Assembly: GCF_003605755.1 (NCBI RefSeq)
Contig: NZ_RAHJ01000007.1
Location: forward strand, 1 to 40,159
From: Tsuneonella suprasediminis
GTDB taxonomy: Bacteria > Pseudomonadota > Alphaproteobacteria > Sphingomonadales > Sphingomonadaceae
Direction: 5' to 3'
DNA length: 40,159 nucleotides
Of this stretch, positions 2,696 to 31,709 are shown piece after piece. The notes below the pieces were generated by a model, which saw only the letters and a program-made list of their open reading frames with translations, ran no database searches and was not told where the DNA came from. Both the position numbers and the translations under genes were made by a program. Position 1 is the first letter of the stretch. The number at the start of each line of letters is the position of its first letter.

Positions 2696-3172
2696 TTAGG
2701 CCGCCTTGTCTTCGGGCAGCTGCGGCGTGTCGTCATTGACATGCTCGCGGCTTCCGATGGCGATTTTGCGCCGCTTGAGCGATTCCGGGACGATCCGCTG
2801 GAGCGAAATCGTCAACATGCCGTGCTCGTAATCCGCATCGCGCACTTCGACATAATCGGCCAGCTGGAACCGGCGCTCGAACGCGCGGGCAGCGATACCG
2901 CGGTGAACGAATTCAACACCGTCTTCGTCCTTCTCGATCTTCTGACCGGAGATGACGAGCTGGTTCTGCTGTGAAGTGATGTCGATTTCGTCCGGACGGA
3001 AGCCGGCAACCGCCAGAGTGATCCGGTAGCTGTCCTCGCCGGTACGAACGATGTCGAAGGGTGGGTAGCCATCCTGCGTCTCGGCGCGGAAGCTGTTCTC
3101 GAGCGCATCGAAGAGCCGATCGAAACCGACCGTCGAGCGGCGATAGGGGGTCAAATCAAATGCAGTTCTCAT
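2696..3172 (-). CDS. Small heat-shock protein, IbpA-like Hsp20
   Basis: A 158-aa ATP-independent holdase that binds unfolding proteins and hands them to DnaK/ClpB. The N-terminal segment (MRTAFDLTPYRRSTVGFDRLFD) is IbpA/HspA-like. The alpha-crystallin domain runs from about residue 36 to 125 and contains the EHGMLTISL strand, where family members usually have an NGVL-type motif. The ATG at 3172 is chosen over an upstream ATG at 3205 because AAGGAGG lies 8 nt before it and because the leader forms a ROSE-like hairpin covering that site (3175-3201). It differs from the three sHsps at 8677-10017, so the island carries two sHsp classes. Confidence 0.9.
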   Translation of the reverse strand: MRTAFDLTPYRRSTVGFDRLFDALENSFRAETQDGYPPFDIVRTGEDSYRITLAVAGFRPDEIDITSQQNQLVISGQKIEKDEDGVEFVHRGIAARAFERRFQLADYVEVRDADYEHGMLTISLQRIVPESLKRRKIAIGSREHVNDDTPQLPEDKAA

Positions 3173-3174
3173 TT

Positions 3175-3201
3175 CCAAATCCTCCTTGTTGAGCAATCTG
3201 G
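3175..3201 (-). promoter_or_regulatory. ROSE-like RNA thermometer covering the Hsp20 RBS
   Basis: In the minus-strand leader, UUGCU (3192-3196) faces AGGAG of the Shine-Dalgarno across a short CAACA loop. This gives U-A, C-G, a G-G opposition, U-A and U-G, the signature core of ROSE elements. An outer stem CCAGA/UUUGG (3197-3201 with 3175-3179) extends it. ROSE elements control rhizobial and enterobacterial sHsp genes by melting at heat-shock temperature. The pairing is seen in the sequence; temperature control is inferred. The full element may reach farther upstream. Confidence 0.6.
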
Positions 3202-3597
3202 GCATGAGAGGCGCCGGGAACCAAGAGCCGACGCCCTCTGTCCAACCGGCATACCAATGAATTTCGTCGTAGGGGCTGCAACATGTCTTGCCATCTGGTT
3301 GTCCTACCTTTGAAAAGTGTCAGGAGAATTCTTGAGGTCCCCGCTGACGTTGAATGTACACATAATCAGAGCGCATTGAGCGGTAGCTTGAGGTAGCGTA
3401 TTCCATTTGACGTGATGGCGTGGACGCGTGAAGCGATCTGCAGTACCCATTTTTGCGTACATTGATTCGCAAAACACGATTGGGGAATGCTTTTCATGCA
3501 AGCGAGAGCCCTGGAAGCATTCCCCCGCCGGTTGCTCCTTGCAGGCGATCGCGCCAGACAACAGCGTGCACAACACCTCATCGCAGGATAAGAGCGC
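3202..3597. other. Divergent intergenic region with an 11-bp inverted repeat
   Basis: About 400 bp lie between the divergently read Hsp20 gene and the HPF-sigma gene, with no convincing gene. A perfect inverted repeat, GGGGAATGCTT at 3482-3492 and AAGCATTCCCC at 3515-3525, lies about 70 bp before the plus-strand start. It could be an operator or an RNA hairpin. I found no clean heat-shock sigma or EcfG promoter on either strand. Confidence 0.45.
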
Positions 3598-4656
3598 ATG
3601 GCAATCTTCATCAGCCTGTCAGTCACAGACAAAACTACATCGAAACAGGATGCGGCAACCGTGCGCACGGCGTTGCTGGAGGAAGCTGTCGGGGCTCTTC
3701 AACCAATTTTCGGTGCACGCGGAGCATCTGCTACCCGTATTCAGGCTGTTCTTGGTCGCTCGCCGGACAAAGATGCGACATTCAGCCTGTCGGTGCATTT
3801 GCATTTGCCGGGCCAGAGGATCGTGGCCGTTCACAGTAAGGGAGACGATCTGCGTTCATTGGCCAGGGACGTCATCGACAAGCTAACATCTGCTACTCGC
3901 AGGCATTTGGAAAGACTGGCCCATGGTACCGAATTCGCCCGCAAAAGGCGGCGCGAGCGTCTCTACGAGATCACGACCGGGGCCGATCAGCGTCCTGAAA
4001 GGGAGCGCAGCCTGGTAAAGGCGAGACTGGCCGAAATCCGGCCCAAGTTGGAAACAGCTTCCAGGCGCGAATTGGCCTATCTGCGTGCCGTGAGCAAACT
4101 TCCAACCGGCTATCCCGAAGTCGCCGATATCGTTGACGAAGCCATCATGCGCGTCATTGCGAGCGATCATGGGGTCGTGGATGCCGGGGAATTACAGATT
4201 GCCGCCTTGCGCGAACTCTTCGCGGTGATCGACGCGGAAATCGCCGCTCAGCAGATTTCGATGTCGGCTATACCGCTAGACAGCGAAGTGCCTCAAGATG
4301 CAGAAGATGAAGCGGAGGCTATGGTCGAAGAGGAATTTTACGAATTCTATCAGCCCGACGACCATGTCACTTTGGCCGATGTCCTGCCAGTTGAGCTCTC
4401 GCAGACCAAAGTCGCGCTCGATGAGGTGCACGTTGCAGGCGTGGTCGCGGCTCTGCGCGACCTGCCGAATCTCTGGCGCAGGGTGTTCGTCTTGCGCCAG
4501 CAAGATCTCTTCGCACCGAAGCAGGTTTCGGAAGTGGTCGACCGCGCGCTCGATGAGATTGAAGATATTTTCGAAAAGGTATCCGCCTTTCTGGATGCGC
4601 GCCTCGCCGAGTGGGGTGCCGACTCGTGGGAAGAAATTTTCCGAAGCAAAGGTTGA
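3598..4656 (+). CDS. Ribosome-hibernation (HPF/RaiA-like) domain fused to a sigma-70-like region
   Basis: A 352-aa protein with two parts. Residues 1 to about 105 have the beta-alpha-beta-beta-beta-alpha pattern of HPF/RaiA: VRTALLEEAVGAL helix, ATFSLSVHLHLPG strand, then GDDLRSLARDVIDKLTSATR helix. HPF binds the 30S decoding region and silences ribosomes in stress. The rest has a charged linker, a helical REL-AYLRAVSKLPTGYPEVADIVDEA segment, an acidic stretch (about 230-255), and a C-terminal segment, ALRDLPNLWRRVFVLRQQDLF followed by a helix, that resembles sigma-70 region 4. It lacks the canonical long HPF C-terminal dimerisation domain. Only a weak RBS (AGGATAAG) precedes the ATG. It heads the plus-strand cluster with cls and kefB. 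The domain reading is by eye; the sigma part may not bind promoters. Confidence 0.6.
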   Translation: MAIFISLSVTDKTTSKQDAATVRTALLEEAVGALQPIFGARGASATRIQAVLGRSPDKDATFSLSVHLHLPGQRIVAVHSKGDDLRSLARDVIDKLTSATRRHLERLAHGTEFARKRRRERLYEITTGADQRPERERSLVKARLAEIRPKLETASRRELAYLRAVSKLPTGYPEVADIVDEAIMRVIASDHGVVDAGELQIAALRELFAVIDAEIAAQQISMSAIPLDSEVPQDAEDEAEAMVEEEFYEFYQPDDHVTLADVLPVELSQTKVALDEVHVAGVVAALRDLPNLWRRVFVLRQQDLFAPKQVSEVVDRALDEIEDIFEKVSAFLDARLAEWGADSWEEIFRSKG

Positions 4657-4691
4657 CGCTGCTGCCGTCAGGCACCGATGCGCACCGGGGT

Positions 4692-6128
4692 ATGAACATT
4701 CCTGAAACTACGTCGTTTAGCTGGATGATATTTTCAATCGCGGTGATCGCTGCGATTGCCACGGCCAGCCACGCGATCATCCACAAGCGCGACCCGCGAT
4801 CGGCGACCATCTGGCTGCTAGCGGTTGCTCTTGTCCCTCTAGGCGGCTCACTTTGCTACCTTTTATTTGGGATAAATCGGGTTAACCGCAAAGCAATGCG
4901 GCTACGCGCGGCGCGCCCAGCGAAAAGCGAACTTTCCAATCTAGGTTCGGCGGGCAGGGATTTGCCGCCTCATCTGGCCAGTCTTGCGCGTCTCGGGGGA
5001 ACCGTGTCAGGCAAAGAACTGTTGCCCGGAAATCGTTGCACCCCCCTTTTTGGGGGCACAGAGGCCTACCCGCAAATGCTTCAGGCGATTTGCGAAGCGA
5101 AGCATTCTATCGCCCTTGCCTCATACATTTTCGAGGGCAAGGGGATCGGGGCGCTTTTTGTCGATACCCTCGCGCAAGCGCGGTCGCGCGGAGTGAGCGT
5201 CAAGGTCCTGATCGATGATGCTTATGCCAGGTTATCCAACTCGGACGCCTTCGGAGCGTTGCGGCTTCACGGTATTGATGTCGCCCTTTTCAATCCCCCT
5301 GTGATACCGGCACGTCTGCACGGGTTGCATCTGCGCAACCATCGCAAACTGCTCATCGTTGACGGGTACCGGGGCTTTACCGGCGGCATGAACATCCATA
5401 GGCCCTATTGGTGTCCCAAGGCCCCGGAAAGCGCTTTCCGCGATCTGCACCTTGAGGTTTCGGGTCCGGTCGTCGGGCAAATGCGGGAGACCTTCGAGCG
5501 GGACTGGTACGACAGCAAGGAAGTAGAGCTGGACGAAGGCTTCTGGGCTGGCAAATCTGGCAGTCCGATCACCGACGGAGTTAGCCTTGCGCGCGGGGTA
5601 GAATCCGGGCCTGACGAAACGCTGGACCGGATGCGATGGATTTTTATAGGCGCAATCAATGCCGCTCAGAAAAAGATTTCCATTCGCACCCCTTATCTCC
5701 TGCCTGATCAGCCTACTATTGCCGCGCTGGGCGCAGCCGCTTTGCGAGGGGTTCGGGTCGAGATTGTGGTCCCGCAAAACAGCGACCATCTGTTCGTGCA
5801 ATGGGCATCTAAGGCGCATTACTGGCAGATAATCGAACACGGTGTCTGCATTTATGAGCGCCCCGGCCCGTTCGATCATGGCAAGCTGATGATAATTGAC
5901 GATGCCTGGGTGTGTGTCGGCTCCGCCAACTGGGATGCGCGTAGCCTGCGCCTGAACTTCGAATTCAACCTGGAAATTTACGATCGCAGGCTGGCACTGG
6001 AGCTTGGTGACGATTTCGCCCGAATCAGGTCTGCGTCGAAGAAAGTGAGGCCGACCGACCTGTCTGACATGCCGTATTTCGTGAAACTGCGAAATGGCTT
6101 TGCGCGGCTGTTTTCGCCGATCCTTTGA
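4692..6128 (+). CDS. Cardiolipin synthase-type phospholipase D protein
   Basis: A 478-aa membrane-anchored PLD-superfamily enzyme. Two N-terminal membrane segments (about residues 8-30 and 37-58, ending LLFG) precede two HKD motifs: HRKLLIVD near residue 217 followed by GGMN, and HGKLMIID near residue 396 followed by GSANWDARS. This layout matches ClsA, which condenses two phosphatidylglycerols to cardiolipin at the inner membrane. The ATG at 4692 lies 35 nt after the upstream stop; an earlier in-frame ATG (4611) would overlap the HPF-sigma gene and add a non-membrane tail. Altered cardiolipin content fits a heat and envelope stress role. Confidence 0.85.
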   Translation: MNIPETTSFSWMIFSIAVIAAIATASHAIIHKRDPRSATIWLLAVALVPLGGSLCYLLFGINRVNRKAMRLRAARPAKSELSNLGSAGRDLPPHLASLARLGGTVSGKELLPGNRCTPLFGGTEAYPQMLQAICEAKHSIALASYIFEGKGIGALFVDTLAQARSRGVSVKVLIDDAYARLSNSDAFGALRLHGIDVALFNPPVIPARLHGLHLRNHRKLLIVDGYRGFTGGMNIHRPYWCPKAPESAFRDLHLEVSGPVVGQMRETFERDWYDSKEVELDEGFWAGKSGSPITDGVSLARGVESGPDETLDRMRWIFIGAINAAQKKISIRTPYLLPDQPTIAALGAAALRGVRVEIVVPQNSDHLFVQWASKAHYWQIIEHGVCIYERPGPFDHGKLMIIDDAWVCVGSANWDARSLRLNFEFNLEIYDRRLALELGDDFARIRSASKKVRPTDLSDMPYFVKLRNGFARLFSPIL

Positions 6129-6146: not shown

Positions 6147-7844
6147 ATGGAAGAACTCTTTTTCTCTGTGTTCATTCTCTTTGTTTCCATCCTGGTGGCC
6201 GGCTTGCTGTTTCATCTCATGAAGGCTCCAACGATCCTGGGCTATATTGCTGTCGGTATTCTTCTGGGGTCCTCAGTCACCGGATTGTTTCCCGATGGTC
6301 CGGCGCTGGACTTCATGGCCGAGGCAGGCATTATCCTCCTGCTGTTCATGGTAGGCTTGGAATTTTCGCTTACCGAATTCTGGAGCGACAAGGGCAAAAT
6401 ACTGAAGGCTGGCGCGCTGCAGGGGTTTCTTGTGGGGCTGCCCGTGGGAAGCCTCGTTTGGTGCCTGGGGTGGGGAATCGCGCCCGCGATCTTGCTGGGC
6501 GCATCGGTCGCAATGTCCTCGACCGCATTGTCGGCAAAGCAGTTGGCAGACCAGGGGGAATTGACCACCCGGCACGGGCGTGTGGCCATTTCGGTGCTGG
6601 TCTTTCAAGACTTGGCGGCCATTCCACTACTTGCCATGCTCGCGATCTGGCAGTCTGGTGGACAGCCCGGTCTGGTCGAGATATCGCTCGAAGTCCTCAA
6701 GGTCCTGGCAATCTTCACCGTCGCGCTGGCTTTGGCGAGGCCTGTGCTCCACTGGCTGCTGATGGCAATCTATCGGCGCGGCAATTCCGAGCTGCTGGTC
6801 CTTGCCGCTCTCGCGATTATTGCCATGGCAGCGGAATCCGCCCATCTCGCCGGAGCTTCCGCTGCTCTGGGTGCATTCCTGGCGGGACTTATTTTGGGTG
6901 AAAGCGATGTCCGGCACCGGATCGAGGAAGACTTGCGGCCTTTTCGGGACGTTTTCGCTAGTATTTTCTTCGTCTCGATCGGCTTGCAGCTGGACCTGAG
7001 CCAGCTTGGGAGCAGTCCGCTGGCGGTCCTTGCCTGGCTATTGGTTCTCCTTCCTGCAAAAGCATCGCTGAATTTTATCGCACTGAAGATATCCGGATCC
7101 TCTGCGCGTGATGCGCTGCAGACGGCTGTAATTCTGGCGCATGGTGGGGAATTCGGACTTTTGCTCCTTTCCGGAGCTCTTACCGCTTCGCTGATATCGA
7201 CCGAATTGGGCCAGCCACTGCTGCTAGCGCTTGTCGTTTCGATGGGCCTTGGGCCAATTCTTTTCCGATCTTCGGAAACCATCGCGCGGAACCTCTGCGG
7301 CGGGAAATCCAGAATGACCAATCTACCGCAAACCGAGGAGGTGGAAGTCGCTCGCGAAGTCAGGGCTTGCATCAATCACATCGTTTTCTGCGGCGCGGAC
7401 AACCTTGCGCGATCAGCGGCGAGAGCGGTGAGACTGGCAGAACTCGACTTTGTGATGATCGAACCAGATTTGAGACTTTATTTGACCGCGCGCGAAGAAG
7501 GGCTGCCAGTCATTCTCGGCGACCCGGGTCGCACCGCTACGCTCGAGGCGGCGCGCGCAAACGTCGCGGCGGCAATCGTAATAACGAAACCGTCTTCGCA
7601 AAGGCAAAACCGGATTGTGGACTGGTTTCTCGAAGGAAACGCTCACGGGAAAATCGTCTTGCTCGGCACATCTCAGGATAGGGATGAGACGATGCACACC
7701 GACCAACGGATCCTGCAGTTAGACCCGGAGCTATATCTGGGAATGGATTTGGCACGTCTGGTACTGTCGGCTGTCGATCTTCCTAAAAATGAGATCGAGA
7801 AAATTTCCTGCACCTTGACTTCCGATGCTGCAGACCATGCTTGA
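6147..7844 (+). CDS. kefB: KefB-type monovalent cation:proton antiporter with RCK domain
   Basis: A 565-aa CPA2-family antiporter, starting 18 nt after the cls stop. About 12-13 membrane segments (residues 5-385) carry the family's LFMVGLEFSL and VFQDLAAIPLL motifs and the HGGEFGLLL segment. The cytoplasmic RCK/TrkA-N domain starts near residue 409. Its nucleotide-binding loop reads VFCGADNLARSAAR rather than the usual GxGxxG-type glycine motif, so NAD(H) binding may be lost. kefB is a hallmark member of the tLST and is thought to protect the cytoplasm against oxidants and electrophiles by K+ efflux with acidification. Confidence 0.88.
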   Translation: MEELFFSVFILFVSILVAGLLFHLMKAPTILGYIAVGILLGSSVTGLFPDGPALDFMAEAGIILLLFMVGLEFSLTEFWSDKGKILKAGALQGFLVGLPVGSLVWCLGWGIAPAILLGASVAMSSTALSAKQLADQGELTTRHGRVAISVLVFQDLAAIPLLAMLAIWQSGGQPGLVEISLEVLKVLAIFTVALALARPVLHWLLMAIYRRGNSELLVLAALAIIAMAAESAHLAGASAALGAFLAGLILGESDVRHRIEEDLRPFRDVFASIFFVSIGLQLDLSQLGSSPLAVLAWLLVLLPAKASLNFIALKISGSSARDALQTAVILAHGGEFGLLLLSGALTASLISTELGQPLLLALVVSMGLGPILFRSSETIARNLCGGKSRMTNLPQTEEVEVAREVRACINHIVFCGADNLARSAARAVRLAELDFVMIEPDLRLYLTAREEGLPVILGDPGRTATLEAARANVAAAIVITKPSSQRQNRIVDWFLEGNAHGKIVLLGTSQDRDETMHTDQRILQLDPELYLGMDLARLVLSAVDLPKNEIEKISCTLTSDAADHA

Positions 7845-10041: not shown

Positions 10042-10595
10042 TCAGCGCGAACGCGTCTGTCTGGTAGATGCTCCGCGTACCTGGCGGAGGAGTTCTGCAA
10101 ATTCGCGTTCTGCTTTGCCGCCAGCAATGGTTGCCAATTCGATCGTGCGAATCTGGTTTCAAAACCGCGCCCTGTGGCGGGCGACAGTACCCTAAAACCG
10201 CCGCGCGCTGAAGAGACATGCGAGATGCCTCCAGTGCGATAGCCAGAGCGGCGCGACCCTCGTCGGACTTGCGCGCTTTCGCTGCCAGTTCTTCCGCAGC
10301 GCGAGTGGGACCACGGCATTGATCACCGGATACGGAAAGACCGTCTCGGTGACAACGACAGTACTCAAGGTTTGCTCTAGATCGGTCTTTGCTTCATCGA
10401 GCTGACCCGCTTCGATCAGCGCGGCTGCCCGCCTGATCGCGGTCGGATAAGTCGCCATAGGCAGATTTCCCATCCGGACTGCGGTCTGGTCAGCGAAATT
10501 GGAGAGCAGAGTGCGGGCAGTCTGCGTGTCTCCGTCAATCAAGGCCAGCGTCGCACTTCGCTGTGCTGCACGCAGGCTGTCAACATCCGCGATCA
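10042..10595 (-). pseudogene. yfdX-family gene, 5'-truncated and frameshifted
   Basis: The minus strand encodes a YfdX-like stretch (DVDSLRAAQRSA, then GNLPMATYPTAIRRAAALIE and LSTVVVTETVFPYP). It aligns by eye with the intact YfdX at 22416-23333 (SNLPLGTYPDAIKRAAALLD, LSTIVVTETIIPLP). The 5' part is replaced by an IS5-family fragment. After VINAVVP the coding frame shifts (near 10315) to RAAEELAAKARKSDEGRAAL and LQRAAVLGY. Beyond about 10190 it shifts again to IELATIAGGKAEREFAELL, ending at the TGA 10042-10044. At least two shifts plus loss of the start show it is dead. Confidence 0.85.
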
Positions 10596-10999
10596 GGGCA
10601 ATCTCGTTCACGCCGTGATCCATGCCGCCGACATCCAGGACCGCGATGGCGCGCCGTTGGTACTCGCCGAAATCATCAAACGCTTCCCCTGGCTGCGCCA
10701 TGTGTTCGCCGATGGCGGCTATGCCGGGGACAAGTTCAAGCAAGCCCTGCGCCGCTTCGGCAAGTGGACCATCGAAATCATCAAGAGGTCCGATGCGGTG
10801 AAATGCTTCGAGGTGCTCCCGCGGCGCTGGGTGGTTGAGCGAACGCTCGCATGGCTGAACAGGAACCGACGCCTCGCCAAGGACTTCGAGCAGACCATCG
10901 CCTCCGCAACCGCATGGATCTTCATCGCCTCGATCCAGATCTTTACCCGCCGCAGCGCAAGATCATGAAATCTCAACCGATAATTTCGAATCAGACACT
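10596..10999 (+). mobile_element. 3' fragment of an IS5-family (IS427-like) transposase gene
   Basis: The plus strand encodes the C-terminal third of an IS5-family transposase: HAADIQDRDGAPLVLAE, FADGGYAGDKF, then VVERTLAWLNRNRRLAKDFE and a final RRSARS at 10968. The DGGYAG motif carries the second catalytic Asp region and the R-x7-E signature is present (E of VERT). The N-terminal two thirds are absent. The left junction cuts yfdX near 10595. The right end probably lies near 10999, where Crp/Fnr coding begins. It cannot move by itself. Confidence 0.8.
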
Positions 11000-14241: not shown

Positions 14242-14778
14242 TCAGGAAGCATCCACTTCTCGTGAAACAATGACTCTCGCGGCGCGAACCAGTCTGGGCC
14301 CAATCATGTAACCTGACTGCGCGACGCTCACGATCTGGCCTGTATTGGATCCCGGAGTCGGCACGGTGCCGATAATTTCATGCACGTGGGGATCAGGATC
14401 TTCGCCAATCGAAGGACGCAGTATTTTTACCCCGGCCTTGAGCAAGGCATCGTTGATTGCTCGCCGCGTCGCCTCCAGCCCCTTGATCAACGATGGCTCG
14501 ATCTCGTGTGAACCCGCCAAGGCCTCCAAGGCAAGGTCGAGATTGTCGAGCGCTGGTGCGAGTTCGGATAGCAGTTGCGCCATCCCGGCCTGTCGACCTT
14601 CGGTTCCCGCTTTTTCTGCGCGCTTTCGCGCATTCTCAGCTTCCGCCAGTGCACGAAGCAATCGATCCTGTAACGCGTCCCCTTCTTCCGGTTCCGGCAG
14701 GACCTCCGACTCCACGCTTTTACCAACTGCCGAGGGCGATCCGTCCTCGTTCTCGCCATTCTTTGCATTGTCCGACAC
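14242..14778 (-). CDS. grpE: GrpE nucleotide-exchange factor
   Basis: A 178-aa co-chaperone that releases ADP from DnaK. An acidic disordered N-terminus leads into the long dimer helix (about residues 30-85: LLRALAEAENARKRAEKA, LSELAPALDNLDLALEAL). The C-terminal beta domain follows with KILRPSIGEDPDPHVHEIIG and SAQSGYMIGPRLVRAARVIVS, the GrpE signature. The start is a GTG at 14778, 17 nt after the dnaK stop. Placing grpE last in a dnaJ-dnaK-grpE order is unlike the usual chromosomal arrangement and marks this as an accessory copy. Confidence 0.93.
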   Translation of the reverse strand: MSDNAKNGENEDGSPSAVGKSVESEVLPEPEEGDALQDRLLRALAEAENARKRAEKAGTEGRQAGMAQLLSELAPALDNLDLALEALAGSHEIEPSLIKGLEATRRAINDALLKAGVKILRPSIGEDPDPHVHEIIGTVPTPGSNTGQIVSVAQSGYMIGPRLVRAARVIVSREVDAS

Positions 14779-14795
14779 GGCCTGTACCCCCGTAC

Positions 14796-16727
14796 TTAGT
14801 CTTTCTTGTCGTCATCGACCTCGGAGAATTCGGCGTCGACGACTTCTTCATCATCCGAAGCTTCCGAACCGGCAGCTCTACCGGCATCGGCAGAGCCGGC
14901 GGCAGAGGCCTGCTCCTTCTCGTAGATCTGCTGACCCATCTTCATGGCAGCGTCGGTGAGGGCCTGAGCCTTCGCGTTGATCGCATCGTGATCGTCGCCT
15001 TCAAGCGCCGTCTTGGTTTCGGCGATCGCAGCTTCGACGGCTGCCTTGGTGTCGGCATCAATCTTGTCGCCATGCTCTTCGAGCTGCTTTTCGGTCGCAT
15101 GGACCAGGCTGTCGGCCTGGTTGCGAGCCTCGGCGGCTTCACGCCGCTTCTTGTCTTCCTCGGCGAACTTCTCGGCATCACGCACCATCTGGTCGATGTC
15201 GGCTTCGCTGAGACCGCCCGATGCCTGGATACGGATCTGCTGTTCCTTGCCGGTGCCCTTGTCCTTGGCCGAAACGTTGACGATGCCGTTGGCGTCAATG
15301 TCGAAAGTGACTTCGATCTGCGGCACGCCGCGCGGCGCTGGCGGGATGCCGACGAGATCGAACTGGCCGAGCAGCTTGTTGTCCGCCGCCATTTCACGCT
15401 CACCCTGGAACACGCGGATGGTCACGGCTTGCTGGTTGTCATCCGCGGTGGAGTAGGTCTGGGTTTTCTTGGTCGGGATCGTGGTGTTGCGATCGATCAT
15501 GCGGGTGAATACGCCGCCCAGCGTCTCGATACCGAGCGACAGCGGGGTCACGTCGAGCAGGAGAACATCCTCGACGTCGCCCTGCAAGACACCCGCCTGG
15601 ATGGCGGCACCCATGGCGACAACCTCGTCGGGGTTAACGCCAGTGTGCGGCTTCTTGCCAAAGAAATCCTCGACCACTTCGCGTACCTTGGGCATTCTCG
15701 TCATGCCGCCTACCAGGATCACTTCGTCTATCGCCCCTTTGTCGATCCCAGCGTCAGCCATGGCCTTCTTGCAGGGTTCGAGCGTCCGCTTGATCAGGCC
15801 GTCAACCAGTTTTTCGAGGTCGGAGCGGGTGACTGTCTGGACCAGGTGCAGCGGCGTCGTGGTGCCGCCTTCCATGCGCGCAGTAATAAAGGGAAGGTTG
15901 ATCTCGGTCTGTGCTGCGCTTGACAGCTCTATTTTGGCCTTTTCCGCCGCTTCCTTGAGGCGCTGCAGGGCGAGCTTGTCGGTTCTGAGGTCCATATTTT
16001 CCTTCTTCTTGAAGGAATCGGCGAGATATTCCACCACCGCGCTGTCGAAGTCTTCGCCGCCGAGGAAGGTATCGCCATTGGTCGACTTCACCTCGAATAC
16101 GCCATCACCGATTTCGAGGATCGATACGTCAAACGTACCGCCGCCGAGGTCGTAAACAGCAATAGTCTTGCCTTCGTCCTTATCGAGTCCATAGGCGAGC
16201 GCCGCAGCAGTCGGCTCGTTAATAATGCGCTCGACTTCGAGACCGGCGATTTTGCCGGCATCCTTGGTCGCCTGGCGCTGGGCATCATTGAAGTAGGCCG
16301 GGACTGTTATTACCGCCTTCTCGACTTTGTCCCCTAGGTACTCTTCGGCGGTTTCCTTCATCTTTTGCAGGATGAAAGCGGAAACCTGGGAAGGGCTGTA
16401 CTTCTCGCCGCCCGCTTCAACCCATGCATCGCCGTTGGGCCCCTCGACAATCTTGTATGGAACAAGCTCCATGTCTTTCTTGGTGGTCGGATCGTCAAAC
16501 CGCCGACCGATCAGGCGCTTGATCGCGAACAAGGTGTTATCCGGGTTGGTCACGGCCTGGCGTTTGGCGGGCTGGCCGATCAGGCGTTCGCCATCCTTGG
16601 TGAAGGCGACGATAGACGGCGTGGTGCGCGCACCTTCCGAATTCTCGATCACTTTGGGCTTGCCACCTTCCATAACGGCAACGCAGCTGTTGGTTGTTCC
16701 GAGGTCGATACCGATAACTTTAGCCAT
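14796..16727 (-). CDS. dnaK: DnaK (Hsp70) chaperone
   Basis: A 643-aa Hsp70. The ATPase domain opens with [18 protein letters not shown] and carries the [17 protein letters not shown] and [17 protein letters not shown] motifs and [13 protein letters not shown]. The substrate-binding domain starts near residue 385 ([20 protein letters not shown]), and the C-terminal lid ends in an acidic [14 protein letters not shown] tail, as in functional DnaKs. TGGAGCTCC precedes the ATG. It is probably a second copy next to the host's housekeeping dnaK. With ClpB, CbpA-type DnaJ and GrpE from the same operon it forms a complete disaggregation machine. Confidence 0.96.
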
Positions 16728-16787
16728 GGTTTGGAGCTCCAGAAAACAATAGATTAAGATGTGTTCAGGCTTGGGTTCGCCGTCCCC

Positions 16788-17549
16788 CTAACGCAGAAGG
16801 ATCACGTCAGCGCTCTGGCTGGATCGGCTGGCGGAATGGTCGTATGCGCGCGGCAGCCACAAGACTGCGCGGACCCCACGGGGTGATCGAGGCACCAAGC
16901 TTATGCTGCCTCCAGACTTCTGTGCGAAGCGCTGTGCATGAGTAAGTCCGAGCCCAAGGCGATGATCAGCGCCCCAATTCGAATAGAACGGCTCGAAAGC
17001 CAGCGCGATCGTATCGCGTCTGAGCCCAGGGCCATTGTCGGCAACTTCAATTTCAATCCGCTCGGGGAGAGCGTCAATTGCCGGGCGGTTCCTCAAGCGC
17101 AAAGATACTTTCCCACCATTTCCTCCGGCAGCCAGGAATGCATTTTCAAGCAGGGCCGATAAGGCGCTGGCGAAAGAGGCAGGGGCAACCCGAACCGGCC
17201 ACAAACCTGTTTCAAGTATCTTTTCAAACTCCACTTCCACTGGAATCCCTGACTGGATCTGGTCCATCAAATGCTTGATCAATTCTGGCACATCGACCAA
17301 TTCCTGAAGCGGCGAATTAGCAGCTGGAACAGACAATTTGCTTACTAATCTGGCCGAATTGAGGAGCGCCATACGCATCTTGCGACGAAGCTTGATCGCC
17401 TCCTGCTCATCGGCGAATTCCAACGTTTCAAGGCCCGCAGCCAGCACGGCAAGCATGCTTGTCAGGTCTTCCGTCGATGGCAGAGGGGTCACTGACGACG
17501 TTCCTGCTGGCATCATGTCCCGAAAGCTACTTTGGAATTGACGCTTCAT
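16788..17549 (-). CDS. Histidine-kinase-like ATPase without an obvious phospho-acceptor domain
   Basis: A 253-aa soluble GHKL ATPase. The C-terminal half has all the nucleotide-binding boxes: N box (SALLENAFLAAG), G1 (EVADNGPGL), F box (FEPFYSNW) and G2 (HRLGLGLTHAQRFAQKSGG). The N-terminal half is helical (EDLTSMLAVLAAGLETLEFADEQ) and resembles a DHp-like dimer, but I see no H-E/D-x-x-N/T motif and no sensor or membrane segment. GGAGG precedes the ATG. It sits between dnaJ and dnaK in the chaperone operon with no response regulator nearby. It could be a HisKA-degenerate kinase, a histidine-phosphotransferase relative like ChpT, or an anti-sigma-type switch. Confidence 0.75.
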   Translation of the reverse strand: MKRQFQSSFRDMMPAGTSSVTPLPSTEDLTSMLAVLAAGLETLEFADEQEAIKLRRKMRMALLNSARLVSKLSVPAANSPLQELVDVPELIKHLMDQIQSGIPVEVEFEKILETGLWPVRVAPASFASALSALLENAFLAAGGNGGKVSLRLRNRPAIDALPERIEIEVADNGPGLRRDTIALAFEPFYSNWGADHRLGLGLTHAQRFAQKSGGSISLVPRSPRGVRAVLWLPRAYDHSASRSSQSADVILLR

Positions 17550-17654
17550 GACCGGCCTCCTGTGCCAAAATGTACCTCTAGTCGCTTCTCAGGCAAATCC
17601 ACTGATCCAGATCAGGCGTTTCGGATCAGCCTTGCCTGTCCCAATGTGATCGCA

Positions 17655-18587
17655 TTAGACACCCAGCTTCGAGCGGGGATTGTATTCATTCTTTTCTCGC
17701 CATTCCTTGGCCCACGCTTCCAGGCTTTTATCGTTCTGCGGAAGGTCGACCATCAACCGCACCAGTTGATTGCCGCGCCCACCTTGGCGACGGGCCATTC
17801 CTTTACCCTTGATGCGCAGAACTCTGCCCGAGGTGGATCCCTTCGGCACTGTTAGCATGATCGGACCATCGATCGTGGGTACGCGCACCTTTGCGCCGAG
17901 TACGGCCTCGTCCCACCGGATTGGCAGGTCGAGGCGAATGTCGTCCTCATCCTGTCGGAAGAAAGGGTGGAGCGTGACGGTCAGTTCAAGAATCGCGTCA
18001 CCGCGCCCTCCCGGTCCGGGCCGCCCTTTGCCCGCAACGCGCAGGCGATCTCCACTCTGGGTTCCCGGAGGGATCTTGACCTCGAGTTGCTCGCCGCCAT
18101 CGAGGTTGATTGCGAATGGTTTTGCAGTGGCGATATTTTCGAACGGGACATTTACCGCATAGAGCACATCGCTTCCTCGCGGGCGATATTCGCGCCCGCC
18201 AGCCCCGCGACCCCGCCCAAAGAGATCGGCGAAGATGTCCCCCAATTCCTCCGAATCGCCAGAGAAATGAAAGGATGTCGCTCCATCCTGCGCCGATCGA
18301 AACGGTCCTCCGCCCGAGAACGGCCCATGGCCCTGGAAATCTTCGAAACCGTAAGGTGCGCGCGGGTTGCCGTGCTCGTCGATCTCGCCGCGGTCGTATC
18401 GCGCGCGTTGCTCGGCATCGCTCAAAAGATCATATGCTTGGGTGACTTCCGCGAACCGGGTCGCCGCGTCGGGCTTGTCCTTGTTGCGATCGGGATGAAG
18501 CTCTTTGGCGAGTTTGCGATAGGCTTTCTTGATCGCAGACTGATCTGCTGTGCGCGATACGCCGAGTATCGTATAAGGATCTGCCAT
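17655..18587 (-). CDS. CbpA-type DnaJ co-chaperone
   Basis: A 310-aa class-B J protein. The J domain (residues 2-70) has the HPD motif in AKELHPDRNKDKPD. A Gly/Phe-rich linker (GHGPFSGGGPF) follows, then two beta-sandwich substrate domains with VKIPPGTQSGDRLRVAGKG and VPKGSTSGRVLRIKGKGMA. No CxxCxGxG zinc fingers are present, so it is CbpA-like rather than DnaJ-like. It delivers clients to DnaK and stimulates its ATPase. It follows trxC by 43 bp; a 105-bp gap separates it from the HATPase gene. Confidence 0.93.
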   Translation of the reverse strand: MADPYTILGVSRTADQSAIKKAYRKLAKELHPDRNKDKPDAATRFAEVTQAYDLLSDAEQRARYDRGEIDEHGNPRAPYGFEDFQGHGPFSGGGPFRSAQDGATSFHFSGDSEELGDIFADLFGRGRGAGGREYRPRGSDVLYAVNVPFENIATAKPFAINLDGGEQLEVKIPPGTQSGDRLRVAGKGRPGPGGRGDAILELTVTLHPFFRQDEDDIRLDLPIRWDEAVLGAKVRVPTIDGPIMLTVPKGSTSGRVLRIKGKGMARRQGGRGNQLVRLMVDLPQNDKSLEAWAKEWREKNEYNPRSKLGV

Positions 18588-18630
18588 TAACTAAATCACC
18601 TGAAATTGGGATGCAGGGCGGAAATGCGGG

Positions 18631-19071
18631 TCAGCCAATATGTGCCTCCACCCATTGGCGAAGCGCGGAGGGGGGTAAGGCACCGGATCGTTGATCGACC
18701 AGCCGTCCATTCTTGAATATTAACAAGGCGGGGACGCCCTGCACGCCGTACCGGGCGGCAAGTTCGGGAGCCTTGTCGATATCGACCTTTGCGAACCTGG
18801 CGCGCGGTTCGATTGCAATCGTGACCTGGGCAAATGATGGAGCCATGGCGCGGCAGGGACCGCACCACGTCGCCCAGAAATCCACAACGACAGGTATGTC
18901 GGATCGTGTGATATGGCGATCGAACCTCTGGCCCAGCAGGTCGACGGGCGAACCATTGAACAGCGCCTTGTGGCATTTGCCGCATTTTGCGGCCTGGGCT
19001 GGCCGATCAGGCGGGATAGCGTTGACCGCATCACAATGTGGGCAAACTACCTTGATATTGTCGGCTTCCAT
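18631..19071 (-). CDS. trxC: Thioredoxin 2-type protein with N-terminal zinc ribbon
   Basis: A 146-aa TrxC-like disulfide reductase. Two CxxC pairs near the N-terminus (CPHC at 10-13, CGKC at about 30-33) should bind zinc. The thioredoxin fold follows with the WCGPC active site in VVVDFWATWCGPCRAMAPSF and the cis-proline loop GVQGVPALLIF. The zinc site gives TrxC a redox-sensing link in E. coli. A thioredoxin gene is a standard member of tLST islands. It starts 38 bp after clpB and precedes dnaJ in the minus-strand operon. Confidence 0.93.
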   Translation of the reverse strand: MEADNIKVVCPHCDAVNAIPPDRPAQAAKCGKCHKALFNGSPVDLLGQRFDRHITRSDIPVVVDFWATWCGPCRAMAPSFAQVTIAIEPRARFAKVDIDKAPELAARYGVQGVPALLIFKNGRLVDQRSGALPPSALRQWVEAHIG

Positions 19072-19109
19072 TCGCCGCCCTTCCCTTGCTTGTCGTGCGC
19101 TCGCGCTGC

Positions 19110-21698
<2,589 letters not shown>

Positions 21699-22361: not shown

Positions 22362-22415
22362 GCTTCACTTCCAGAAGCCGACTTGTGGTCCAACCATCAA
22401 AGAAGGAGTTCCGCC

Positions 22416-23333
22416 ATGACATTCAGAAATCTTGCCCATGGCGTTGCCGCCATCGCATTGCTTGCGGCTACGGCCTGTTCCGATAATGCCGAGGAGGCGG
22501 CGGGCGGACAGGAAGCTTCGGCTAGCGCAACCGATACGGATCAGGCTGCGGGCGGCGCCACGGCCGAGGATCAGGTGCAACTCGGAACTCTGCTGAAGGA
22601 AGCGGTATCCGCTCTCGATGAAACGCAGGCGGCTATCAGCGCCATTGACGCGGGCAATAATCAAGAGGCGATCGACGCTCTGGCCAGGGCCACGGGCAAA
22701 CTTGAGATCATCCTGACGCGCGAACCCAACCTGGCACTTGCTCCGGTGGCCAATTCGGTCATCGAACATGATGTTCTTGCAACGCCAGGCGATGTCAAGG
22801 CGCTCTCCGACCGGATCGAGGATCTGACTGATGAGGGACGTTTGCAGGAAGCGAGGCGGCTTATGGAAGGCCTCGCAAGCGAGATGGTTATCAGGACCAG
22901 CAACCTTCCGCTGGGTACCTATCCTGATGCCATCAAACGCGCGGCCGCACTGCTGGACGAACAGAAGCCTCAGGAGGCCAAGCTCGTCTTGCTAAACGCC
23001 CTGAGCACCATTGTCGTGACCGAAACCATAATTCCGTTGCCGATCGTCCGTGCCGAGACAAGCGTCGAGGCCGCGCGCGTCGTTGCGGCAAAAAAGGACC
23101 GCACGAAAGAAGACAACCAGGCAATTGCTGCGGAACTGCAAAAGGCCCGTGAGCAAATCGAGATGGCGCAAGCGCTCGGTTATGCGACCAAGAAGGATCT
23201 TGACGATCTGCAGGACGCGATCAAAGAACTTGAGCGAGAGACTGGCGAAGGTAACGCCGCAGATCGCTTCTTCGAACGCATCAAGGGGCTTTTCGGCAAG
23301 GCCCGTGAAGCAGTACAGCCGAAAAAGAATTGA
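22416..23333 (+). CDS. yfdX: YfdX-family periplasmic lipoprotein
   Basis: A 305-aa exported protein. A signal peptide (RNLAHGVAAIALLAATACSD) ends in a likely lipobox ATAC, so it is probably a lipoprotein. A Gly/Ala/Glu-rich linker follows, then the helical YfdX domain: EAVSALDETQAAISAIDAGN, LPLGTYPDAIKRAAALLDE, LSTIVVTETIIPLPIV, and a coiled-coil tail (about 230-285). YfdX is a tLST hallmark, linked to acid and heat tolerance with chaperone-like behaviour in enterobacteria. AAGGAG precedes the ATG at 22416. A dead paralogue lies at 10042-10595. Confidence 0.9.
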   Translation: MTFRNLAHGVAAIALLAATACSDNAEEAAGGQEASASATDTDQAAGGATAEDQVQLGTLLKEAVSALDETQAAISAIDAGNNQEAIDALARATGKLEIILTREPNLALAPVANSVIEHDVLATPGDVKALSDRIEDLTDEGRLQEARRLMEGLASEMVIRTSNLPLGTYPDAIKRAAALLDEQKPQEAKLVLLNALSTIVVTETIIPLPIVRAETSVEAARVVAAKKDRTKEDNQAIAAELQKAREQIEMAQALGYATKKDLDDLQDAIKELERETGEGNAADRFFERIKGLFGKAREAVQPKKN

Positions 23334-26924: not shown

Positions 26925-27776
26925 TTAGAAGTTCATCGCCGGCACGGGAGCAGGAGATGCGTCTTCCTTCGGCAGTTCAGCGACCAGTGCCTCGGTGGTG
27001 ATCAGCAGCGAGGCGACCGAAGCCGCATCCTGCAGCGCTGTGCGCACCACCTTCGCCGGATCGATGACACCCGACTTCACCAGGTCTTCATATTCGCCGG
27101 TCGCGGCGTTGAAACCATGGTTGTAGTCGTCGCCTTCGAGCAGCTTGCCGACGATATAGGCACCGTCTTCACCTGCGTTCTCGGCAATCTGGCGAGCCGG
27201 GGCACGCAGGGCGCGACGAACGATATCGATACCGGACTGCTGGTCGTCATTGGTAGCCTTGAGGCCTTCGAGCGACTTGAGCGACCGGAGCAAGGCGATG
27301 CCGCCGCCCGGCAGAATGCCTTCCTCGACCGCCGCACGGGTTGCATGCAGCGCGTCGTCGACGCGGTCCTTGCGCTCCTTGACCTCGACTTCGGTCGCAC
27401 CGCCAACGCGAATAACGGCAACGCCGCCAGCCAGCTTGGCTACGCGCTCCTGCAGTTTTTCGCGGTCGTAGTCGCTGGTCGTGGTCTCGATTTGGGCGCG
27501 AATCTGGCTGACCCGGGCGTCGATGTCGGCCTTGTTGCCGGCACCATCGACGATGGTCGTGTTGTCCTTGTCGATAATGACCTTCTTCGCCCGGCCGAGC
27601 ATGCCGATCGTGACATTTTCCAGCTTGGTGCCGAGTTCCTCGCTGACCACGTTGCCGGCGGTGAGGATGGCAATATCCTCCAGCATGGCCTTGCGGCGAT
27701 CGCCGAAGCCGGGTGCCTTGACCGCCGCGACCTTGAGGCCGCCACGAAGCTTGTTCACCACCAGGGTGGTCAGGGC
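26925..27776 (-). pseudogene. groEL, 3' half only
   Basis: This is the C-terminal half of the GroEL chaperonin from about residue 265: [38 protein letters not shown], the intermediate domain, AALHATR-type helix, [15 protein letters not shown] and the equatorial [20 protein letters not shown]. The frame is intact to PAPVPAMNF and lacks the usual GGM tail. Coding homology stops abruptly at the GCC near 27776; the ATP-binding DGTTT half and groES are absent. A later in-frame ATG/GTG could yield a fragment, but no working chaperonin. It is the torn right end of the stress island. Confidence 0.88.
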
Positions 27777-27863: not shown

Positions 27864-28712
27864 TTAGTGTAAAACTGCCTCCGGCGCCATGGCTGGCCGC
27901 AGGTGAAGCGTAGTGGAACCGGAGGGCGGCCATGGCGGCGTTACCGTTTCCGGAGCCGGAGGTCGATAGCCCAACGAACTGTGCGGCCTGACGGTGTTGT
28001 AGTGTCTGCGCCAGGCCTCGATCAGGATCCGAGCTTCGGCCAGGGTGTAGAAGATCTCGCCGTTCAAGAGCTCGTCACGCATCGAGCCGTTGAAGCTCTC
28101 GCAGTAGCCATTCTCCCAAGGGCTGCCAGGCGTGATGTAGAGCGTCTTCACGCCGATCTTCGCCAGCCACTGCTGGACAGCGTTGGCGATAAATTCCGGA
28201 CCATTGTCTGACCGTATGTGCGCCGGCGGCCCCCGTGTGACGAACAACTCAGCCAGTGTTGCCAGAACGTCCTCGCTTCGCAGCCGTCGCGCGACGGGTA
28301 AGGCGAGGCATTCGCGGCTGGCCTCATCGATGATCGTCAGGATGCGGAACTTGCGTCCATCGTGCGTGCGTCCTTCAACGAAGTCGTAGGACCACACGTG
28401 CCCCGGATACTCCGGCCGTAGGCGGATACATGATCCGTCGTTGAGCCAGAGCCTTCCACGCTTCGGTTGCTTCTGCGGCACCTTGAGCCCCTCGCGGCGC
28501 CAGATGCGCTCCACCCGCTTGCGGTTCACATGCCATCCCGCATCGCGCAGCAAGGCCGTCACCCGGCGATAACCATAGCGACCATACTGCCGGGCCAGGG
28601 CAATGATATCCTCGGTGAGTGCGGCTTCGTCATCTGCCCCGCGCGGCGCCTTGCGCTGTGTCGATCGATGTTGCCCGAGCACATGGCACACCCGCCGCTC
28701 GGACACCGGCAT
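27864..28712 (-). CDS. IS3-family transposase OrfB
   Basis: A DDE integrase-core transposase: HTH_21-like YGRYGYRRVTALLRDAGW, D in VWSYDFVEGRTHDGRKF, D in HIRSDNGPEFIA and E in PWENGYCESFNGSMRDELLN, followed by HYNTVRPHSSLGYRPP. The 282-aa frame from the ATG at 28712 is not the full product: the same frame continues upstream (GKLLSPARRRRCIDHIRGL) into the end of orfA. A -1 frameshift at GGGGAAAC near 28770 would make the OrfAB fusion that transposes. Confidence 0.9.
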   Translation of the reverse strand: MPVSERRVCHVLGQHRSTQRKAPRGADDEAALTEDIIALARQYGRYGYRRVTALLRDAGWHVNRKRVERIWRREGLKVPQKQPKRGRLWLNDGSCIRLRPEYPGHVWSYDFVEGRTHDGRKFRILTIIDEASRECLALPVARRLRSEDVLATLAELFVTRGPPAHIRSDNGPEFIANAVQQWLAKIGVKTLYITPGSPWENGYCESFNGSMRDELLNGEIFYTLAEARILIEAWRRHYNTVRPHSSLGYRPPAPETVTPPWPPSGSTTLHLRPAMAPEAVLH

Positions 28713-29337: not shown

Positions 29338-30372
29338 TTACGCCGCGACCGCCGCCGGAGCTCTGTAATCTTCCTTCTTGGTGAGCAGCGCCCAGACCAT
29401 GCGCGCCATCTTATTAGCGAGTGCGACCGAGACGAGCATGCGCGGTTTGCGCGCAAGCATTCGCTCCAGCCACGAGCCTGCCGGTGCACCGAACCGACAG
29501 GCCTGCCGCACCATTGAGCTGCCGCCGATGATCAGCAACCGCCGGATCGTCCGCTCGCCTATCTTCGATATGCTGTCGAGCCGTTGCTTGCCGCCGGTCG
29601 AGTGCTGGCGCGGCGCATGGCCGAGCCATGCGGCAAAGTCCCGCCCTTTGCGGAACGTCTCGATCGGCGGGGCCAGCGCGATGATGGCGGTGGCGGCGAC
29701 CGGGCCGATACCGGGGATGGTCATCAGCCGCCGGACCGCCTCGTCCTCCTTCGCCCGCCGCGCGATCTCACGGTCGAGCACGGCGACCTGCTCACCGAGT
29801 TCGGCGAGGAGATCGATCATCAGCTTGAACATCGGCCGCGCCGCCTCCGGCAACGTCGAGGCCATCTCCTCATCCTCGAGGAGGTCTGCGAGCATCGTCA
29901 TGTGCGCCGTCCCGCGCGGCGCCACCCAGCCAAACTCCGCCAAATGACCTCGGATCGCATTGATGAGCTGGGTGCGCTGACGCACCACCAGATCGCGTGT
30001 GCGGAACACGAGCCCGGCAGCCTGTTGCTCCTCGCTCTTTACCGCAACGAAGCGCATGCCGGGGCGCTGCGCCGCCTCGCAGATCGCCTCCGCGTCGATC
30101 GCATCGTTCTTGTTGCGCTTCACGAACGGCTTCACATAGGCCGGCGGGATCAGCCGCACCTCATGCCCCATCGCCTGAAGCTCGCGTGCCCAGTGATGGG
30201 CCCCGCCGCACGCCTCGAGCGCAACAACACATGGGGCCTGACCGGCGAAGAAGTCGAGCAGCTTGCTTCCCGTCAGCTTGCGACTGAACACCATCGCACC
30301 GCGCTCATCGGCGCCATGCGCGTGGAAAACGTTCTTGGCGATATCCAGACCGATTGTGATAACTTCCGACAC
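29338..30372 (-). CDS. IS110-family transposase (complete)
   Basis: A 344-aa DEDD recombinase. The RuvC-like domain shows D in TIGLDIAKNVFHAHG, E in CVVALEACGGAHHWAREL and the paired D in KNDAIDAEAICEAAQ. The C-terminal Tnp domain has RLMTIPGIGPVAATAIIAL, FAAWLGHAPRQHSTGGKQ and the catalytic Ser in LLIIGGSSMVRQA. The GTG at 30372 follows GAGGGAGG; an upstream in-frame ATG (30417) lies before that RBS. IS110 elements integrate without target duplication, guided by a bridge RNA from a non-coding end. The flanks here (29212-29337 and 30373-30543) are the places to look; a hairpin GGTGTTTCAACACC lies at 30389-30402. Element ends were not resolved. Confidence 0.92.
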   Translation of the reverse strand: MSEVITIGLDIAKNVFHAHGADERGAMVFSRKLTGSKLLDFFAGQAPCVVALEACGGAHHWARELQAMGHEVRLIPPAYVKPFVKRNKNDAIDAEAICEAAQRPGMRFVAVKSEEQQAAGLVFRTRDLVVRQRTQLINAIRGHLAEFGWVAPRGTAHMTMLADLLEDEEMASTLPEAARPMFKLMIDLLAELGEQVAVLDREIARRAKEDEAVRRLMTIPGIGPVAATAIIALAPPIETFRKGRDFAAWLGHAPRQHSTGGKQRLDSISKIGERTIRRLLIIGGSSMVRQACRFGAPAGSWLERMLARKPRMLVSVALANKMARMVWALLTKKEDYRAPAAVAA

Positions 30373-30543
30373 GGACGCCTCCCTCAGTGGTGTTTCAACA
30401 CCTCCACTTTGGCACATAGATGCCGCCGGGGGGCGTCTACCCCATCAGCTTTCGGGTCACAGCGCAAACATCGCCAACGACCGAGATTGGGGCGCAAAGC
30501 TGCCGGAAACACCGCAGCAGAACACGCGCGTTGGATCTTCACT

Positions 30544-31263
30544 CTACGCAGAATCCACCACTCGAAACACCGCCCCTGTACCAGCCTCTCGAACCAGATC
30601 GACACCCATTCCGTCCCAGTGGTAGTCGAGGTGACGTCCCTGAGTGGGGTCGGATGCACAATCCGGGTAGAACAAGCCGACACATTCACCACCCGGATGC
30701 CGGATGCTCGGATAGACAAGACCTTCGGCCCCGCCCCCTTTAAGCTCAACAGCGAGGGCTTGCGATGCAGCATAGTTGTCGGGATCAAGTGCGGGATCGC
30801 CTGTCGCAAGGTTCCTGAGATCGTGAGGATCGGCGCTTACCGAAAGGATGATCTCACGGAACTGCGAGGTCCAACCTGGCGCTTCGGAAGTGCGAGCCAT
30901 GAAGCGGGCATGATGATGGATTGTCTCGAACAGCGCAGTTTCGAATGCATCCCCCGCGTATAGGACGCCGTAGGTCCCATCAGTGAAGCGACTTGGTCGG
31001 TCAGTGCTGACATGCGTGAACGGGGCCATCAGATAGGATGCGCCGTTGCCCCCTACCCGGCGCTCAGCAGGTACCAGATCGAGATTGCCGATCGTCGCCA
31101 TAATGCGGGGATTGGTTTTTTGCTCGGCGGAGATCAGCAGCGGCCAATCTGCAGGGTCTGCGATGTCTTCGAACAGGTCAATCGGTGGAAAGGCACTGCG
31201 GATAATCCGTACAGCACCTTTCCACTCGACCTGGGCAACCGGAATCGCCTTGGGATCAATCAC
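30544..31263 (-). CDS. RES-domain toxin
   Basis: A 239-aa RES-family toxin. RES toxins degrade NAD+ (MbcT/ParT type). The RES core is visible as the R-x8-FTDGTYGVLYAGD segment (about 92-110), the ETALFETIHHH helix and later YAASQALAVELKGGGAEGLV, PSIRHPGGECVGLFYP, which supply the conserved R, E and S residues of the name. It starts with GTG at 31263, overlapping the antitoxin stop (GTGA), so the two are translationally coupled. The longer form (over 200 aa) matches the Xre-linked type. Confidence 0.9.
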   Translation of the reverse strand: MIDPKAIPVAQVEWKGAVRIIRSAFPPIDLFEDIADPADWPLLISAEQKTNPRIMATIGNLDLVPAERRVGGNGASYLMAPFTHVSTDRPSRFTDGTYGVLYAGDAFETALFETIHHHARFMARTSEAPGWTSQFREIILSVSADPHDLRNLATGDPALDPDNYAASQALAVELKGGGAEGLVYPSIRHPGGECVGLFYPDCASDPTQGRHLDYHWDGMGVDLVREAGTGAVFRVVDSA

Positions 31264-31673
31264 CAGGCACCACGTTCGGCATCAAGATAGCGACGCACCC
31301 GCATGATATCGGTCAGCTCGCCGCCAAGCATGACGTCGAGCGCACTCGCTCCGGCAAAGGCGGCGTTACCTGCCTTAATCCAGGCGTAGCCACGTTGGGC
31401 TTCGGAAAAGATGATCCTCAGCGCCTTGTGGATACCCATCAGGTTGGAGAGCCGCGCCGCACCATCGCGCGAGACACGGCCCGGCCCCTCAGCTTTCCAC
31501 CGCCGGAAGGAGCGAACCGGCATGTCGAGCAAAGTCGCTGCCTGCTCGTCTGTGAGTTCCCATTTGCCGAACAGGTTCAGCACGGCGCGAAACATCGCCG
31601 ATGCTTCCTCCTGAGTTATAGGATCGGGTCGGAAGGCGTGGGGGACGGTATCAACGGGTTGCAGTGCCAACAT
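31260..31673 (-). CDS. Xre/MbcA/ParS-type antitoxin
   Basis: A 137-aa antitoxin with an N-terminal Xre-like DNA-binding domain (FGKWELTDEQAATLLDMPVR, SFRRWKAEGPG) and the C-terminal DUF2384 toxin-binding domain (LSNLMGIHKALRIIFSEAQR, GYAWIKAGNAAFAGASALDV, MLGGELTDIMRVRRYLDAE). GGAGA lies 6 nt before the ATG at 31673; another ATG at 31679 is too close to it. The frame is open farther upstream but through the end of the helicase gene. Such antitoxins repress their own promoter; a palindrome lies 37 bp upstream. Confidence 0.9.
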   Translation of the reverse strand: MLALQPVDTVPHAFRPDPITQEEASAMFRAVLNLFGKWELTDEQAATLLDMPVRSFRRWKAEGPGRVSRDGAARLSNLMGIHKALRIIFSEAQRGYAWIKAGNAAFAGASALDVMLGGELTDIMRVRRYLDAERGAW

Positions 31674-31709
31674 GAGCATTCTCCATATGGCATCATATAG
31701 CACTTTGAA

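Follow-up and report, generated by a model that had tools for sequence, protein, structure and literature searches.

An open reading frame within a stress island of Tsuneonella suprasediminis joins an N-terminal HPF/RaiA domain to a C-terminal module of ECF sigma origin, in which both region 2 and region 4 are represented, and computation shows that this combination persists across relatives from several bacterial groups. The gene was analyzed within a stretch of 40,159 nucleotides (contig NZ_RAHJ01000007.1), which we call the window, and it runs from an ATG at position 3598 to a stop codon that ends at 4656, the limits also taken by a sequence-only reading of this DNA that had proposed a ribosome-hibernation fold followed by a sigma-70-like C-terminus (Table 1). 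We tentatively regard the product as a stress-island hibernation protein, that is, a candidate ribosome-bound and promoter-blind sigma mimic whose predicted partner is the RNA polymerase core (or an anti-sigma factor), an identity to which we attach slightly less than even credence. Both HPF fusions (HibA) and sigma mimics (PhyR) are already known. Among the literature matches listed, which are partial texts and take in few subscription journals, none describes HPF/RaiA and a sigma factor in one protein.

Table 1. Positions of the fusion gene, the parts of its product, the adjoining genes, and the relatives that lack the HPF domain (window positions unless a locus is named)
Feature	Positions	Strand	Basis or remark
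HPF-sigma-like fusion gene	3598..4656	+	352 aa; ORF list, family searches; relative of tLST orf11
HPF/RaiA (S30AE) fold, residues 4-108	3607..3921	+	AlphaFold, Foldseek, hhalign 98%, charge
Degenerate sigma region 2-like helices, residues 134-222	3997..4263	+	AlphaFold helices; TIGR02937 in relatives
EFYQPDD linker motif, residues 249-255	4342..4362	+	Family conservation; low pLDDT at 224-271
Sigma region 4-like helices, residues 271-338	4408..4611	+	AlphaFold, Foldseek, hhalign 99.1%, charge comparison
Hsp20 gene	2696..3205	-	Divergent from fusion gene
Cardiolipin synthase-like gene (cls)	4692..6128	+	Next gene; ATG start inferred, start given by ORF tool is GTG at 4611
KefB/KefC-like cation:proton antiporter gene	6147..7844	+	ORF list, profile matches
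Sigma-only relative, locus L126	1619-2248		No HPF domain
Sigma-only relative, locus L127	4689-5297	-	No HPF domain
Sigma-only relative, locus L004	1345-2076		No HPF domain

Two Domains in One Protein

On its own, the window protein stays below threshold in profile searches, so the fusion claim could not be settled from that one sequence. It matches the Pfam S30AE model (PF02482) over residues 28-107 with an E value of 0.0014 and 19.8 bits, under the cut-off of 23.7; no Pfam sigma model reaches an E value of 1 against it, and NCBIfam sigma models match its C-terminal part at 0.02-0.03. A sequence search of the PDB with the same protein returned one unrelated match (E 0.09). Relatives are more informative. 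When ten of them were scanned singly, five passed the Pfam cut-offs for both S30AE and sigma-70 region 4 (L082, L066, L048, L074, and L003), one (L043) passed that for S30AE alone, and four passed neither; L004, without the N-terminal domain, matches Sigma70_r2 below the cut-off, as does L126. The family alignment holds 46 members (43 full-length proteins and three sigma-only relatives), and at E ≤ 0.01 the region 4 model PF08281 matches 32 of these and PF02482 matches 29. Among the NCBIfam matches listed (the best 25 of 94), the models for PhyR, sigma70-ECF, and yfiA account for 31, 27, and 11 members, respectively. The sigma70-ECF model TIGR02937, which covers regions 2 to 4, matches near full length and above its curated cut-off in three of five members (L082, L066, and L003), falls below the cut-off in L048, and has no match in L018. 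Neither the S30AE_C domain found at the C-terminus of long HPF nor a receiver domain occurs among the 13 Pfam families that match the 46 members at E ≤ 0.01.

Comparing the two halves separately, profile against profile, gives 98.0% (E 1.9e-13) for the N-terminal part against 31 HPFs and 99.3% (E 1.4e-20) for the C-terminal part against 29 sigma factors; the crossed controls give 0.3% each. The HPFs were gathered with Pfam's profile. The profile of the family itself served to fetch the sigma factors, and their 99.3% is therefore a favored value, of which TIGR02937 is independent; this set is taken as mostly ECF by size and sequence, with L121 and L123 read as non-ECF. Aligned alone to the sigma factors with hhalign, the region 4-like part scores 99.1% and the region 2-like part a weak 54%, and for the window protein itself the grouping of region 2 with region 4 in a single unit comes from two sources, the structure and the family profile.

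In its AlphaFold model (mean pLDDT 80.7), the window protein has a beta-alpha-beta-beta-beta-alpha arrangement at residues 4-108, which is the strand order of HPF, and then helices at 110-222 and 271-338, with a low-confidence stretch (224-271) between a four-helix region 2-like part and a four-helix region 4. With this model, the only two Foldseek matches in the PDB at E ≤ 0.001 are chloroplast and Listeria HPF/pY proteins (5e-4 and 6e-4). The HPF/pY targets include 5x8r_y, 8uu7_w, and 2rql, with a TMt of 0.81 to 8uu7_w, and from an E value of 0.0012 onward the same model retrieves ECF sigma chains such as SigH, SigW, RpoE with NepR, and sigma E. A second AlphaFold model, built for the member L082 from a Calditrichota MAG, gives 40 matches at E ≤ 0.001 that belong to the same HPF and sigma classes. 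Because both models were built on family alignments, they are independent neither of the family nor of each other. A chance resemblance to HPF and sigma was ruled out by the crossed controls together with the two models. Both the HPF/RaiA N-terminus and the sigma region 4 at the C-terminus that the sequence-only reading had proposed are thus borne out by fold and profile; it had overlooked that a degenerate region 2 of sigma is present, that the linker is conserved, and that the gene lies in a tLST setting.

The HPF Domain

The second helix of the HPF fold continues into a basic extension, and residues 85-126, which span both, have a net charge of +6 in the window protein and a mean of +7.3 in 43 members. 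A comparable stretch carries +4.9 in 25 of the 31 HPFs, where it measures 30 aa and so differs in length from the family's. The alignment also shows the family helix to be without some of the basic residues of canonical HPFs. We read the basic helix as probably kept in part and extended, a reading that predicts binding to the 30S subunit. The N-terminal fold and part of this helix are what the fusion protein has in common with HPF/RaiA/YfiA; where long HPF has its S30AE_C domain, the fusion protein has the sigma-like module instead.

Such an exchange could mean that the protein is a hibernation factor of the ribosome only, its sigma-derived helices forming a C-terminal module that bridges subunits or dimerizes ribosomes in the manner of the long HPF C-terminal domain or the CBS module of HibA. 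As described in the available part of its report (PMC13324472), HibA of archaea combines an HPF with a CBS module that interacts with the large subunit, so an HPF fusion touching the other subunit does exist, and the degenerate state of the sigma part would suit this role. HibA is like the fusion protein in joining an HPF to a second functional module, and the two differ in that module, which is CBS with a large-subunit contact in the one (same partial source) and sigma-like in the other. Nevertheless, the ECF fold is retained over both regions, and the HPF-less relatives L126, L127, and L004 have the same linker core, E-W-(Y/F)-Q-P, which makes a factor confined to the ribosome quite unlikely in our estimation.

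The Sigma-like Module

ECF sigma factors such as SigW, SigH, RpoE, and AlgU have the fold of regions 2 and 4 in common with the fusion protein, which departs from them in its extra HPF domain, its conserved EFYQPDD linker, and its acidic recognition helix. In a sigma factor, the basic recognition helix of region 4 reads the −35 element. Over 17 compared columns, this helix has a mean net charge of −1.95 (range −5 to 0) in 42 of the 43 full-length members, one having been dropped for gaps, versus +2.69 (range −1 to 4) in the 29 sigma factors; with a maximum of 0 among the 42, the family is without the basic −35 recognition helix by which an ECF sigma factor would be told. The window protein's own helix is acidic, and the three sigma-only relatives have a smaller shift (mean −0.67). 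A column occupied by R or H in 22 of the 29 sigma factors is I or W in 36 of the 46 family members and K or R in none. Region 2.2 keeps only in part the motif by which sigma binds core, with D-x-x-D where sigma has D-x-x-Q. Most simply read, the recognition helix data mean that the family has retained the sigma fold and probably lost promoter reading. The earlier term sigma-70-like, in other words, holds for the fold and apparently not for the surface that reads promoters.

A promoter-reading sigma factor is not dismissed by this charge test and is lowered by it to a rival explanation. The protein would then be a true ECF sigma factor under the control of its HPF domain, either held from RNA polymerase by idle ribosomes or released by stress so that the island is transcribed. 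The sequence retains region 2 as well as region 4, the TIGR02937 cut-off is passed in three of five members, and public records give some members the names "sigma-70 family RNA polymerase sigma factor" or FliA (one E. coli record has "RNA polymerase sigma factor"). Against this stand the acidic helix and the lost R/H column, as well as the lack of a promoter-like site of the EcfG or sigma-70 type, the two types scanned, near the gene: the window contains three EcfG-type promoters, none near the fusion gene, where 1.06 are expected (9 of 100 shuffles reach three), and a scan for sigma-70-type promoters over 3150-4720 found none. We consider a true sigma factor distinctly improbable. The charge data suggest that the database names mislead on function, and the HPF half is named in none of the relatives' records among the matches listed.

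PhyR mimics a sigma factor without reading promoters (cf. the available portion of PMC5830050), and at the level of sequence the helix with which region 4 would read DNA appears to have turned acidic in the family, as it has in that protein. A fetch with PF22233 gave 15 matches, of which 11 were used and four left out; recognition helix charges are −7, −3, −1, and −3 in the four PhyR proteins and +2 to +5 in the seven other sigma proteins. PhyR thus has in common with the family its sigma-like regions, the acidic helix, and a profile match, and it carries a receiver domain where the fusion protein carries HPF. If the likeness extended to function, the module would act as a decoy that binds an anti-sigma factor (of the NepR type in alphaproteobacteria and of another type elsewhere) and frees a stress sigma factor, and the HPF domain would tie this switch to ribosome occupancy. 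The helix charge, the NCBIfam PhyR model, which matches 31 of the 46 at E ≤ 0.01, and the presence of PhyR in the host are in keeping with a decoy, whereas the missing receiver domain and the occurrence of members in enterobacteria, Acinetobacter, and Calditrichota MAGs are not. NepR is not known from those hosts, so a single partner of this kind would not serve all of them, and we find the decoy rather unlikely.

The linker around EFYQPDD (residues 223-270) is acidic, with a net charge of −15. E249 and Q252 are present in all 46 members, the sigma-only relatives included, and P253 and D254 in 45. The linker that leads from region 2 to region 4 of an ECF sigma factor threads the polymerase cleft in the holoenzyme, from which we infer that EFYQPDD would be placed there. 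Median pairwise dN/dS, taken over 150-157 pairs of close relatives with a whole-gene dS of 0.15 to 1.2 (pairs that need not include the window protein), is low throughout, at 0.26 for HPF, 0.22 for region 2, 0.29 for the linker, and 0.44 for region 4, which makes the region 4-like part the least constrained portion; certain single pairs exceed 1.

Proposed Function

In the reading that we prefer, a ribosome-bound sigma mimic, the HPF domain would occupy the mRNA/tRNA channel of the 30S subunit under heat or oxidative stress and halt translation, and the sigma-like module would fill a sigma-binding site without recognizing promoters. The site would most likely be on the RNA polymerase core, at the β′ clamp and β flap; the gene is found in alpha-, beta-, and gammaproteobacterial islands, so the partner is most likely universally conserved, which the polymerase core is. 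The protein might then park both machines, or tether one to the other, until recovery. Weighing against this reading are the dispensability of orf11 in published E. coli tests, the broken copies in LHR2 and L052, the incomplete region 2.2 motif and weak alignment of region 2, the looser constraint on region 4, the basic residues lost from the HPF helix, and the smaller charge shift of the sigma-only relatives. The sequence-only reading had envisaged a coupling of translation arrest to transcription, and of that proposal contact with two machines stays the most economical idea; with a recognition helix as acidic as PhyR's, the coupling would go by sigma mimicry instead of by directing transcription.

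A more specific version, possible but doubtful in our judgment, is a mobile dual hibernation factor in one protein, with a plug for the 30S subunit and a promoter-blind sigma on the polymerase core, EFYQPDD near the active cleft, and both machines parked or held together under lethal heat or chlorine. If that were true, every host newly reached by tLST would receive a stop-and-store switch along with the island. For E. coli, the idea that transcription and translation hibernate at the same time is an established one, with separate proteins (Rsd; RMF and HPF) bringing it about according to the available part of PMC6904343; the mechanism proposed here, if it holds, would link ribosome hibernation to transcription in a single protein.

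Relationship to orf11 and Distribution

The window protein is a 34%-identical relative of the tLST/LHR protein orf11, homologous over most of its length by alignment, and the two genes also have their type of neighborhood in common. As far as the sources are available, the orf11 protein is described as hypothetical or as less than 30% identical to known proteins (PMC7685784, PMC5383660, PMC8290217), and the present analysis gives it a candidate identity. The counterpart in TLPQC of Pseudomonas aeruginosa clone C is ORF10, judged by its position between HdeD and thioredoxin. Single deletions in E. coli MG1655 with the island showed heat or chlorine resistance to depend on 7 of 13 genes, orf11 not being one of them (PMC8407380); these tests scored survival and not recovery or ribosome state, and the single deletions put into competition were those of sHsp20, hdeD, and kefB and not of orf11. 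Deletion of orf11 is reported to have left lipid oxidation unchanged. The excerpted text of PMC5383660 has orf11 of LHR2 interrupted by orfC and orfD, and that of PMC7010813 reports the proteomic detection of 11 LHR proteins, including one unnamed hypothetical protein, which may be orf11 or orf1.

By tblastn, relatives occur on 295 of 72,556 plasmid records, all at less than 60% identity and mainly in Klebsiella, Enterobacter, Acinetobacter, and Escherichia. In two plasmid records that were inspected, the relative lies between hdeD-GI and trx-GI and is labeled hypothetical protein. Among 5426 complete E. coli genomes, 152 have orf11. From the genome collection, a profile built on five members retrieved 123 relatives, and the 80 best were retained; a profile of the middle part matches 5 of the phylum's 398 genomes at E ≤ 1e-8, one of them being the genome of the window. 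A search of viral contigs with a single protein as query found no relatives. One relative, at L052, is split into two pieces. The host genome has two separate HPF genes and PhyR, so the fusion protein is an addition to these.

The sigma-only relatives may represent a stage before the fusion or after its loss. One of them, L127, adjoins Hsp20, Cls-, DegP-, KefB-, and HdeD-like genes. An identical protein is found in six loci (L011, L012, L013, L014, L015, and L037), on contigs labeled Pseudomonas, Pantoea, Desulfovibrio MAG, and Spirochaetia MAG, an identity that reflects either very recent transfer or MAG contamination.

Stress-Island Context

Neighboring genes were compared by blastp with reference proteins drawn from the window and from two plasmids for the best 80 of the 123 relatives, and 74 of these 80 loci have at least one tLST-type neighbor (HdeD in 61, ClpK in 60, and KefB in 52), one of the 74, L074, being counted solely through a hypothetical gene that it has in common with the window. 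The six loci without such a neighbor are L048, L049, L051, L054, L066, and L082, some of which lie on short contigs. In L066 and L082, both from Calditrichota MAGs, the genes around the fusion are, as we read them, ordinary chromosomal ones, and the fusion is therefore not confined to the island. The order fusion, Cls, KefB seen in the window recurs in L009, L010, L044, and L046.

The tLST-type genes of the window are four for Hsp20 and others for Cls, KefB, YfdX, MscS, and PsiE, with an HdeD-like gene that carries DUF308 repeats, and the window thus holds a homologue of orf11 within an island of the Hsp20/ClpK/YfdX/HdeD/KefB kind, as expected of tLST/LHR cargo. Where tLST usually has its ClpK set, the window has genes for ClpB, DnaK, GrpE, DnaJ, and a Dps-like protein, and we regard the island as tLST-like and unusual in make-up. 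The ClpB was identified by TIGR03346 (1395.5 versus a cut-off of 1232.1), and a ClpK identity for it was rejected (780.7 versus 1900). Genes for GrpE, DnaK, a HATPase-domain protein, a DnaJ-type protein, and this ClpB occupy the minus strand at 14242-21698, and the Dps-like gene, of ferritin-like type, is also in the island.

Several smaller features accompany these genes. A partial YfdX-like ORF at 10192-10743, with its best stretch at profile positions 58-148, is likely a remnant, a fuller YfdX gene being present at 22383-23333. GroEL models match the ORF at 26925-27761 only from about position 261, and a transposase ORF with integrase core domains adjoins it at 27864-28712; this looks like a groEL cut by insertion. 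Pfam identifies a RES-domain toxin paired with an Xre/MbcA-type antitoxin at 30544-31991. Transposase genes of the IS21 (IstB) and IS110 types are found at 127-2381 and 29338-30417, and ORFs for a strawberry-notch-type helicase of 1410 aa, a Toprim-domain protein, a lytic transglycosylase, and a tyrosine integrase form a mobile-element backbone at 31735-39250.
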